In this document: positions 8,115 through 11,181 of the stretch, piece after piece
Layout: every line of letters starts with the position of its first letter
Numbering within the stretch: position 1 is the first letter of the stretch
NCBI RefSeq assembly: GCF_004087835.1
Contig: NZ_CP035119.1
Span: 2,294,001-2,358,000 of the forward strand
Direction: 5' to 3'
DNA from: Halorussus pelagicus
GTDB lineage: Archaea; Halobacteriota; Halobacteria; Halobacteriales; Haladaptataceae
DNA: 64,000 bases
Position numbers and translations under genes: made by a program
The notes under the pieces: generated by a model
Seen by the model: the letters and a program-made list of their open reading frames with translations, nothing else
The model's database searches: none
What the model was told of the DNA's origin: nothing

Positions 8115-8555
8115 GTGAGCGATAGCGTTTACTTTGGTCTCTTCATCGTCGGCATCTTCCTGCTGACCGGCGCGCTCGTCGTCGGCGTCGGCGCGCTTGA
8201 GTACGAAGTCACGTCGCTGGGCACCGTCAAAGAGGTCCCCGACGACACCGAGTCGCTGGTCGTCTACGACAGTCTCTCGGAGCGCGACCGCCAAACTGTC
8301 CAGCGCGTCCTCGCGGGCGAGCGACTCGTCGTCCGCGACCCGACCGAACTGCCGGGACCGCGGAAGACGAAGGGGAAGTTAGCCGTCCAGCGCGACGGCG
8401 AGACGTATCTCGTCACTCGCCGCGTCTTTTTCAACTGGCGGACGAAGTTCGGCGCGAGTTCGATAGCGATGGCCGCCGCGGGTCTGCTCGCGGTCAGCGA
8501 GGCCGTCCGGCGACAGCACTTCCCTCACCGAACCGTCGTGTGGACGCGGCGCTGA
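8115..8555 (+). CDS. Small membrane protein of unknown function
   Basis: 146 residues, family not recognised. A transmembrane helix (about residues 6-28, FGLFIVGIFLLTGALVVGVG) is followed by a hydrophilic domain of about 85 residues with SLSERDRQTVQRVLAGE, and a second, weaker helix near residue 115 (SSIAMAAAGLLAVSEAV). The layout suggests a membrane-anchored protein with one globular loop. The GTG start is set by the TATA box at 8088-8095 (leaderless). It lies between the toxin-antitoxin pair and the halocin-like gene; no functional link is shown. Confidence 0.65.
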   Translation: MSDSVYFGLFIVGIFLLTGALVVGVGALEYEVTSLGTVKEVPDDTESLVVYDSLSERDRQTVQRVLAGERLVVRDPTELPGPRKTKGKLAVQRDGETYLVTRRVFFNWRTKFGASSIAMAAAGLLAVSEAVRRQHFPHRTVVWTRR

Positions 8556-8591
8556 GCGTGGTAACCGAGCGGTCGCGCTCGGCGGTTTCGC

Positions 8592-8744
8592 TCAGGCGTT
8601 GACCTCGAATTCGTCAGTGATCGTGACCGCGGGCGGGTGTAGCTCCAGTCGAGGTTCACGCTCTCGTACCAACCAAGACGTTGATGCTCTGGCTCCCGTC
8701 GTGAGTGCCGAGCGGGCCGTATCGTTGAGGTCGGCGTTACCCAT
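8592..8744 (-). CDS. 50-residue protein divergent from the halocin-like gene
   Basis: A short gene beginning MGNADLNDTARSALT and ending TDEFEVNA. No family is recognised and there are no cysteines or membrane segments. Support comes from its promoter: a minus-strand TATATTAG (complement of 8771-8778) stands about 30 bases before the ATG, giving a leaderless transcript, and the shared 77-base AT-rich region faces the halocin-like precursor. It could be a regulator or accessory peptide of that gene, or unrelated. Existence is likely but unproven. Confidence 0.45.
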   Translation of the reverse strand: MGNADLNDTARSALTTGARASTSWLVREREPRLELHPPAVTITDEFEVNA

Positions 8745-8821
8745 ATCGTTCTCAGAACACCACATAATATCTAATATACAAAACACCAAATTAAAGTTTT
8801 TAGAGTTTACATCTTAATCTG
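8745..8821. promoter_or_regulatory. AT-rich divergent promoter of the halocin-like gene
   Basis: A short AT-rich region between two divergent ATGs. ATTAAAG (8790-8796) is the likely plus-strand TATA, about 27 bases before the precursor ATG at 8822. TATATTAG on the minus strand (complement of 8771-8778) serves the 50-residue gene. Both transcripts would be leaderless. Confidence 0.55.
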
Positions 8822-9688
8822 ATGTCCGAGGATAATGTAGATAGACGGGACGTATTGCGAGGAATGGTTGGAACCGGCATGGTCGGGCTCGGTTCGACGT
8901 TCAGCGTGTCGATGGCGGCCGCTGACGGGTCAACCGCCGATCCCGTCACCATCCTCGAAGATGACCAGAAGTTCTCGCTCGCACGGGACCTCGCCGACAC
9001 GACGGCGTTCGAGATGTTGCTCGCCAAGGCGGACAAGTTGGGATATAGCTTCAAATGGAGTGCGGACAACCTCTTTGCGGCCCGAACTGAGACCGAACAA
9101 CTGAAGCGGGAAGTCGTTGAGTACCGTCTGGACGAACCGCGCGAGAACGTGGATGCGATGATAGTCGTCGCTCGGGACATGGAAGCCGACACCGTTGAGG
9201 TTGCAACGTTGGACCTCGAATACCACACCGCCGAGGGGCTGTGGCTCAAAACCGAAAAATACGAACTTGTCGATGGTGCCATCGAGCAACGGACGCTCGA
9301 ACCCGACGGCGACGCGCTCCAGCGTGCGATTGACGAACTGGAGGCCGGTCGGGAGGCAACCACCGCACAGGACGGCGTTACGACGCAAGTTGACCTTCCA
9401 GACGTTATCAAAGTAAACGAGTGTAGCCAGTGTTACGAAGCCTCCAAACTGCTCTGTACCGCTGTGTGCAACGCTGGAGGAACGCTCAGTTGTCTGCTTC
9501 TCGGTATCACAGTCGTTGGCAGCATCGCGTGTACGACGTTCGTGAAGGCGGTCTGTTTCGTCGCCAAGAAGGCTTCCGGCTGTGGTAATCGGGTCGCGGC
9601 CACCATCTGCAAGCCATCCGGTATCGGTGCCTGCGGACCAGACCAGAAGCCCGGCGGCATCATCCAAATTGACATTCCCTACCTGTAA
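8822..9688 (+). CDS. Halocin C8-like microhalocin precursor
   Basis: 288 residues. A Tat signal (RRDVLRG at residues 8-14, hydrophobic part to about 34) is followed by a domain of about 165 residues and a cysteine-rich C-terminus. Ten cysteines at 201, 204, 212, 216, 224, 237, 245, 254, 263 and 271 give spacings 2-7-3-7-12-7-8-8-7. As I recall halocin C8, its spacings are 2-7-3-7-13-7-8-8-5, with a shared LLGIT after the fifth Cys and SGCG at the eighth. In halocin C8 the C-terminal peptide is the antimicrobial and the N-terminal part (HalI) gives immunity. A 17-residue tail after the last Cys is extra. No transporter or protease gene adjoins it. Confidence 0.85.
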   Translation: MSEDNVDRRDVLRGMVGTGMVGLGSTFSVSMAAADGSTADPVTILEDDQKFSLARDLADTTAFEMLLAKADKLGYSFKWSADNLFAARTETEQLKREVVEYRLDEPRENVDAMIVVARDMEADTVEVATLDLEYHTAEGLWLKTEKYELVDGAIEQRTLEPDGDALQRAIDELEAGREATTAQDGVTTQVDLPDVIKVNECSQCYEASKLLCTAVCNAGGTLSCLLLGITVVGSIACTTFVKAVCFVAKKASGCGNRVAATICKPSGIGACGPDQKPGGIIQIDIPYL

Positions 9689-9743
9689 TTCCGGCTCTGC
9701 AGACTAAAGTTAGCTCCTCGTTTGCTGTCTTTTCTTCTTCGAC

Positions 9744-9977
9744 CTAAGGGAAAAGAAAGCTTATCAGGTCGAGGACCGTCTGTCTGGTCTGTTCGCCGGA
9801 TAGTCGGAATACGAGGGCCATCATCAGGAACGCCCCGAGGCCCGCAATTACTGCTGACCCGAACCGTGAGGAGGTCGGCTCAGTCAGATACCACGTCACA
9901 CCTGTCACGGCGGCGAATACCAACATGAAGACCCACTGTTGGCGCGTGTACCTGAACGATTTGGGTCTGTCAGCCAT
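9744..9977 (-). CDS. Two-helix membrane protein beside the halocin-like gene
   Basis: 77 residues with two predicted transmembrane helices (about 15-31, WVFMLVFAAVTGVTWYL, and 40-58, SAVIAGLGAFLMMALVF) and a basic N-terminus, so both ends probably face the cytoplasm. Family not recognised. It converges on the halocin-like gene with 55 bases between stops. Small two-helix proteins are common as immunity or export helpers for peptide antibiotics, but here that is only inference from position. Confidence 0.55.
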   Translation of the reverse strand: MADRPKSFRYTRQQWVFMLVFAAVTGVTWYLTEPTSSRFGSAVIAGLGAFLMMALVFRLSGEQTRQTVLDLISFLFP

Positions 9978-10041
9978 ATATTTCTCTGTACTCTGTCTCT
10001 GACTAAATCTCTTGTGTCAGTCGCGCGGCCACCGCGGTCGG

Positions 10042-11181
10042 TCACGTCAACAGCGCCGCCAGCGTCTCCTCGATAGCCTCGCCCGCGCGTTCGACCTCGG
10101 CGACCCGGACGTACTCGCGGGGCGCGTGGGCCACCGCGCCCTCGTCGTCGGCCAGCGACCCCGGACCGAACACGACCGTCGGCGCGACCTGTGCGAAGTA
10201 GGATGCCTCCGTCGCGGCACCGAACGGCCGGACGTTCCCGCCGCTGGTCTCTCGGAGCGTCGCCGCCAGTTCGCCCTCCGCGGGCGTCTCGAACGCCGCC
10301 AGAAACGGCGTGTCGCGCTCCGCGAGCGCCACCTCGACGCCGACGGCCTCCGGCGCATGCGCCCGGAGGTGCGTTTCCAGCGCCTCGCGGAACCCCTCGG
10401 CGGTCTCCGGGGGCACGCTCCGACGGTCCACGACGAACGAACACTCGGCGGGCACCTGATTCGTCGCGGTACCGCCCTCGATGGTCGTCGGCGTCAGCGT
10501 TGAGTCGCCCAGCGCGTCGCTCGCGTCCGGGCGGTCTTCCCGGTCGTCGAAGGTGTCGAGCGCCCCGCTCGCGGCTTCACCGCTCGTTCGAGGCGTCTCC
10601 GACGCCTCGCTCAGCAGGTCGCCCGCCGCGCGAACCGCGTTGACTCCGGACTCCGGTTCCGCGGCGTGAGCGTTCGCGCCCCGGACCGTGACCGTCGCCT
10701 GAAACCGCCCCTTGGCCGCGTTGCACACGTCGAGTTCGGTCGGTTCGCCAACGATGACGGCGTCGGGTTCGGGGTCGAAATCGAGGGCGGCCGCGCCGGT
10801 CGAGTTCGTCTCCTCGTCGGGCGTGACGGCAAGCGTCACCCGCCCGCGCTCGACTTCCGCACCGAGGAACGCCGCGAGTATCGCCGCCAGCGGTCCCTTC
10901 GCGTCGCAGGACCCCCGACCGCGAATCACGCCGTCGTCTCGGGAGAACTCGACGTGGGGCGGCACGGTGTCGATGTGGGTGTTGAGGACGACGTGGGGAC
11001 CGTCGCGCCCGGAGTCTCTGACCGCGACCATGTTTCCGGCGTCGTCCACCGAGACCCGAACCTCGGGGTCTGCGTCCGCTGATTCGAGCGTTGAGACCAG
11101 CAACTTCCGCATCTTGGTCACGTCCTCGTGAGAGGGCGTTTGCACCGCCGCTTCGAGGAACTCGACTGAGTCGAAACTCAT
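10042..11181 (-). CDS. dapE: M20 peptidase: succinyl-diaminopimelate desuccinylase
   Basis: 379 residues. It would remove succinate from N-succinyl-LL-diaminopimelate. Metal ligands of the M20 family are visible: NTHIDTVPP (His and Asp), SCDAKGPLAA, and the catalytic Glu in TPDEETNSTGA. A dimerisation domain begins after GRFQATVTVRGANAHAAEP. The family also contains ArgE-type deacetylases, but position as last gene of the lysine operon fixes the assignment. Its ATG overlaps the dapF stop by 4 bases. Confidence 0.88.
   Translation of the reverse strand: MSFDSVEFLEAAVQTPSHEDVTKMRKLLVSTLESADADPEVRVSVDDAGNMVAVRDSGRDGPHVVLNTHIDTVPPHVEFSRDDGVIRGRGSCDAKGPLAAILAAFLGAEVERGRVTLAVTPDEETNSTGAAALDFDPEPDAVIVGEPTELDVCNAAKGRFQATVTVRGANAHAAEPESGVNAVRAAGDLLSEASETPRTSGEAASGALDTFDDREDRPDASDALGDSTLTPTTIEGGTATNQVPAECSFVVDRRSVPPETAEGFREALETHLRAHAPEAVGVEVALAERDTPFLAAFETPAEGELAATLRETSGGNVRPFGAATEASYFAQVAPTVVFGPGSLADDEGAVAHAPREYVRVAEVERAGEAIEETLAALLT

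Follow-up and report, generated by a model that had tools for sequence, protein, structure and literature searches.

Background

The closest described counterpart of the gene reported here is the halocin C8 system of Natrinema and its relatives. Its precursor, ProC8, has 283 amino acids and the mature halocin HalC8 has 76 (PMC11509114); besides HalC8, the precursor contains HalI. Precursors of the HalC8 type have no protease yet assigned to them (PMC12893001). Halocin H4 / HlyR4 of Haloferax mediterranei offers an analogy of maturation only: it is likewise made as a secreted precursor from which an extracellular cut frees the active fragment (PMC12893001).

Here we describe a halocin C8-type precursor gene from Halorussus pelagicus, located within a stretch of 64,000 nucleotides (contig NZ_CP035119.1, positions 2,294,001 to 2,358,000), hereafter the window, to which all coordinates refer unless another locus is named. 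The gene is intact and was probably acquired laterally; its product, a new Halorussus precursor for the family, has a conserved tail and allows definite masses to be predicted for the mature peptide. The scar left at the locus shows that some 1 kb of DNA is enough to carry a halocin gene to a new place with no partner, as would be expected if toxin and protection sit in one protein. The family as a whole is strongly associated with small membrane proteins, which leads to the testable proposal that archaeal antimicrobial systems may have a further layer of immunity.

Results

The gene (8822..9688, plus strand) runs from an ATG start to a TAA stop and encodes 288 amino acids, of which the C-terminal third alone holds cysteines, ten in all, at residues 201, 204, 212, 216, 224, 237, 245, 254, 263 and 271. 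The original prediction, made from the letters alone, had taken this reading frame for a halocin C8-like precursor and had given the cysteine spacing as 2-7-3-7-12-7-8-8-7, which is exactly what the frame encodes. The N-terminus, MSEDNVDRRDVLRGMVGTGMVGLGSTFSVSMAAADG, reads by eye as a twin-arginine leader (VDRRDVLRG...SMAAADG; residues 1-34, 8822..8923) with RR, a hydrophobic stretch and an AAA site; cleavage is likely after AAA34, and RR and AAA-x-G are aligned in relatives. The Hac8_like_N (HalI-type) domain follows at residues 45-148 (8954..9265), and then a linker at residues 149-194 (9266..9403), placed by alignment to the 76-residue C-terminal part of a ProC8-like protein. From the alignment with the ProC8 cut, the processing site is presumed to lie in this linker, before V195. 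The ten-cysteine core occupies residues 201-271 (9422..9634) and the C-terminal tail, GPDQKPGGIIQIDIPYL, residues 272-288 (9635..9685). With five disulfides assumed, the predicted mature masses are about 9487 Da for residues 195-288 and about 7681 Da for residues 195-271.

Upstream, the sequence ACCAAATTAAAG (8785..8796, plus strand, 26 bp before the ATG) is a possible archaeal BRE/TATA element, placed as for a leaderless transcript, and the pyrimidine-rich run 3′ of the stop codon (9728..9739, plus strand) is a possible archaeal terminator; both were read from the sequence. A promoter and terminator scan of the locus gave no hits with its bacterial models, which are not applicable to archaea. 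Long reading frames on the other strand, such as 8930-9667, are shadow ORFs of the kind common in high-GC DNA.

Both halves of the protein match curated families. The Pfam profile PF22862 ('Halocin 8-like N-terminal domain', curated cut-off 27 bits) matches residues 45-148 with 86.4 bits (E 2.4e-24) over model positions 2-105 of 106, bearing out the HalI-type N-terminal domain of the original prediction, and TIGR04449 ('halocin C8-like domain', NCBIfam halocin_C8_dom, curated cut-off 24 bits) matches residues 201-267 with 37.5 bits (E 3.6e-9) over model positions 1-67 of 69. Since two independent curated profiles match above their cut-offs, the resemblance to halocin C8 is not due to chance. 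Homologs carry the name 'halocin C8-like domain-containing protein' in the NCBI annotation, and by its sequence the 288-residue protein is an addition to this known, already named family. Of 391 genomes surveyed across the class, 42 have a core domain that scores above cut-off and 16 have the N-domain; the cores are diverse, forming 38 clusters at 55% identity. The ten cysteines are invariant across the tail clade described below and the C8 clade, except for one loss in a single genome (G018).

For closer comparison we used a ProC8-like protein of 283 residues (L078), whose last 76 residues start DIDITGCSACKYAAG, which we take to be the N-terminal sequence of HalC8. Since this presumed N-terminus and the published lengths both fit, L078 was taken as the HalC8 reference. 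The window protein aligns with it end to end, with 34% of residues identical (E 5e-42 when compared with this one sequence), in keeping with the earlier view of a new member distinct from the known halocin. The two share a HalI-type N-domain and a linker, and each starts with a putative Tat leader. Their ten cysteines fall in register with spacings in the same order, and the LLGIT and SGCG landmarks pointed out in the original prediction are common to both. The HalC8 spacing that it had quoted, 2-7-3-7-13-7-8-8-5, is the one present in L078; the window protein has 12 in place of 13 and 7 in place of 5, plus a tail of 17 residues. The predicted net charge of the core is +4 (basic), whereas that of HalC8 is -4 (acidic), and the target, range or mode of action could differ.

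In the alignment-based model, the N-domain consists of a helix-loop-helix (residues 47-58 and 61-72) and a six-strand sheet, followed by a helix at residues 163-181, with a mean pLDDT of 79-97 over residues 41-160. The first two model helices lie at the place equivalent to the helix-loop-helix motif that the title of Mei 2008 reportedly names. Modelled alone from 34 aligned sequences, the core is helical at moderate confidence (pLDDT 73.9) and is presumably a hydrophobic helical peptide with five disulfides. Relatives of solved structure were sought by sequence (none; best E 0.21) and by a fold search of the whole model and of the core, which gave no convincing match. A viral library returned no relatives, and viral contigs held none either.

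An immunity-type role for the N-domain would follow by analogy with HalC8, as far as the titles of Sun 2005 and Mei 2008 indicate. One natural case, independent of HalC8, supports a separable function: H. amylolyticus carries a stand-alone Hac8_like_N of 146 amino acids (L068:3190-3630), devoid of leader and cysteine core, which shares 69% identity with the N-domain of the complete precursor (L138) that another Halorussus, G393, has at the syntenic place, with a dN/dS of 0.28. Weak Hac8_like_N matches also occur in the C-terminal half of Tat-secreted proteins of about 700 amino acids (L054 and L059, in G127 and G092), and the domain may therefore have uses outside halocins.

The long tail after the last cysteine, described in the original prediction as hydrophilic and peculiar to this protein, is present at residues 272-288 and has no counterpart in HalC8. 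It is, however, not individual and defines a clade, and its end is conserved and hydrophobic. In relatives the tail spans 16-20 residues and ends in IIxVDIPY[F/L/I] or a close variant; these tailed relatives come from Halorussus, Natrinema thermotolerans, Haloterrigena salina, Haloferax larsenii and Halobacterium plasmids. The tail clade, to which the window protein belongs, is monophyletic in two trees (support 99/98 and 100/99). Among close pairs of relatives, dN/dS is 0-0.26 for the tail, 0.04-0.22 for the core and 0.15-0.39 for the N-domain, values that indicate purifying selection on all three and that are, for tail and core, below or close to those of the N-domain. Because the tail is conserved within the clade and its dN/dS is low, it evidently serves some function. 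To our knowledge, no tail-clade member has been purified so far.

Two plasmid-encoded members have the same architecture and tail: WP_206536420.1 from Haloferax larsenii NCIM 5678 (45% identity) and WP_176705236.1 from Halobacterium sp. GN101 (42.5% identity). In both, a gene for a 68-residue protein with two transmembrane (TM) segments lies 20-24 bp downstream on the same strand, whereas the window gene has no member of that family beside it. H. larsenii NCIM 5678 has been reported as the maker of halocin HA3, and the tail-clade precursor of its plasmid, together with the 68-residue two-TM gene (L158:4001-5159), is a candidate for the HA3 gene, the link being co-occurrence in the strain only. 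On pNRC200 of Halobacterium NRC-1 (L160:3025-3786), the tail-clade halocin ends early, after the sixth cysteine, adjoining a copy of ISH30, and the downstream partner gene is gone.

The genome of the window carries two further halocin C8 members, one of the tail clade (C1:1556595-1557455) and one distant (C1:417143). The former is a full-length precursor, 41% identical to the window protein, that five Halorussus species have inherited vertically at a shared syntenic site and that falls in a separate clade. In the tree the window gene stands among genes from other families, outside this halocin clade of the genus, and forced monophyly of Halorussus was rejected (p-AU 0.026), a moderate result given with a long branch to the window protein. 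Because of this placement the gene was probably acquired laterally, an argument weaker than that of the fossil described next.

Between purB and dapE, related Halorussus genomes have genes for a 146-residue membrane protein (plus strand) and a 347-residue Tat-secreted protein (minus strand). Homologs of the membrane protein lie after purB in most Halorussus genomes, and in the window its resident gene forms the left flank (8115..8555, plus strand; it starts with GTG and is listed from 7980 as a 191-residue frame). The Tat-secreted protein (L146:4757-5800) has no Pfam family, and its gene is present at the purB-dapE site in many Halorussus genomes. Window positions 8116-8608 and 9748-11070 match the corresponding site of the congener G398 at 81% and 79% nucleotide identity. 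Directly right of the first match, 8611..8750 (minus strand) matches the interior of the 347-residue gene at 89.5% over 143 nt (L146:4992-5134), and does so in two further congeners at 86% (G373) and 83% (G394); these 140 bp are a fossil of the resident gene. The next 1.0 kb or so (8751..9747) has no nucleotide match at the syntenic site of three congeners, though both flanks match. Since the fossil and the flanks match and nothing does between them, incoming DNA of about 1 kb displaced the resident Tat-protein gene over its 5′ two-thirds and left the fossil behind.

This incoming segment contains the halocin gene alone, with its AT-rich promoter-like stretch and pyrimidine-rich 3′ end, and this is the only halocin at the site among the Halorussus genomes examined. 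A search for insertion footprints in the form of short direct or inverted repeats yielded chance-like pairs only, with no flanking duplication. The GC content of the segment is 55%, against 66-72% for the flanking housekeeping genes, and the GC3 of the halocin gene is 0.69, against 0.84-0.89 for most resident genes. Composition by itself argues weakly for transfer, because other small genes in the region are also AT-richer (GC3 0.67-0.75).

Discussion

We consider it very probable that the gene specifies a pre-pro-peptide of the halocin C8 family that combines Tat export, cleavage, an antihaloarchaeal peptide and a protective N-domain, and that was gained laterally as a single gene. Judging by its leader, the precursor would be exported through the Tat pathway. 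An extracellular protease would cut the linker near residue 195, as the comparison with ProC8 suggests, and release the ten-cysteine helical peptide with its 17-residue tail. After the example of HalC8, the mature peptide would kill or inhibit other haloarchaea, probably at the membrane, and the N-domain would keep the peptide inert and protect the producer, for which HalI is the precedent and the stand-alone domain of H. amylolyticus a natural parallel. The lone gene entered the purB-dapE region, probably from another lineage, in place of the resident Tat-protein gene.

Other readings of the same protein have to be weighed against this one. Killing is known from experiment for HalC8-type members only, and the precursor might be a secreted or surface cysteine-rich protein with another job (signalling, adhesion or protease inhibition) that owes the halocin name to homology only; the diversity of the cores and the basic charge of this one, where HalC8 is acidic, would fit. 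We regard this as very unlikely, given that the family is mobile, plasmid-borne and patchy (42/391 genomes), which is typical of conflict genes, and that the layout of precursor and protective domain is kept, with linked small TM proteins and the retention of orphans, again traits of conflict genes. It is also rather improbable that the acquisition is silent or decaying, with a gene that is intact and yet unexpressed or unprocessed in its host. Such a fate might be expected for the sole halocin at this site in the genus, and the related copy of Halobacterium NRC-1 is indeed cut short beside an insertion sequence; but the window frame is uninterrupted, its ten cysteines, tail and leader are all kept, and AT-rich promoter-like sequence lies just upstream of the ATG. 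Somewhat more can be said for the tail being a second pro-segment that maturation takes off, which would leave an active peptide ending at or near Cys271, as in HalC8. HalC8 stops at its last cysteine and most family members have no tail, and yet we think such removal unlikely, as the tail is conserved under purifying selection in its clade and neither a protease nor a motif for removing it is known.

A further alternative concerns the neighbour of the halocin gene, a 77-residue two-TM membrane protein encoded 55 bp downstream (9744..9977, minus strand), which could be the dedicated immunity protein of a toxin-immunity pair. Small membrane proteins are indeed frequent in this position. Among the 57 halocin C8 genes with flanking DNA, 33 are followed within 200 bp of their 3′ end by a gene for a protein of 40-140 amino acids in which two or more TM segments are predicted, as against 58/748 other genes of the same loci (Fisher 1.7e-19). 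The excess holds by cluster at 55% identity (24 of 38 clusters, 3e-16), and in 25/33 cases the small protein is encoded on the same strand as the halocin. The 77-residue protein, however, lies outside the halocin-linked TM family, here called A2. Moreover, its homolog (51-53%) stands beside dapE at the same site in G398, a genome whose Tat gene there is still whole and which has no halocin at that position. The 77-residue gene also falls within the flank that matches congeners at the nucleotide level from 9748 onward. The homolog in G398 and the position in the resident flank rule out a co-acquired immunity gene, and that this protein pairs with the halocin at all is highly improbable. A profile of A2 finds no match in the genome of the window at E 0.001. 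As the neighbour predates the halocin and A2 is absent, the window halocin came alone, in agreement with the single-gene acquisition proposed above.

Members of A2 have two TM segments, with E before the second and GxxYYxG within it. They adjoin several tail-clade halocins and are also found about 3-4 kb upstream of HalC8-clade genes. The A2 profile, run over 391 genomes, gives 14 strong hits, and for 13 a halocin gene or remnant lies no more than about 4 kb away; as 11/14 hits are its own seeds, the search is partly circular and speaks for confinement, not for independent rediscovery. Two loci have an orphan A2 gene although the halocin or its core is lost, one in G191:C1 (L165:9195-9395), which is syntenic with the tail-halocin locus of G295, and one in G034:C41 (L166:4593-4802); at these loci the halocin is absent or only an N-domain fragment is left. 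Confinement and orphan retention are marks of an immunity protein and make A2 a candidate dedicated immunity family. We tentatively suggest, without claiming that the odds favour it, that halocin C8 systems are usually two-layered, the fused N-domain being joined by an immunity protein in its own right, small and located in the membrane, whose gene lies in the vicinity and often immediately downstream, a second layer that would sometimes be orphaned after toxin loss and sometimes be dispensed with. Makarova et al. 2019 (mBio 10:e00715-19) reportedly enlarged the HalC8 family and made use of gene neighbourhoods, and the association of small TM proteins with halocin C8 loci may have been reported earlier. 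The confinement of A2, its presence near HalC8 and the orphan cases were not found stated in the literature available to us, that paper excluded.

HalC8-clade loci carry an adjoining regulator or permease gene, whereas the window gene has neither. Five of them (L078, L081, L089, L117 and L118) share a conserved upstream cluster that includes an A2 two-TM protein and a permease-like protein (534-540 amino acids, 12-14 TM segments) that matches no Pfam family. Such loci often encode another small TM protein as well, and a regulator of the HVO_A0261_N/FilR1 type adjoins the halocin. In the vicinity of divergent halocin C8 genes, a family with no Pfam match recurs (L080, L085, L100, L103, L108 and L111) that carries the motif EYTGxNRCxxCTVxN near its start; in G112 it is encoded 10 bp downstream of the halocin.
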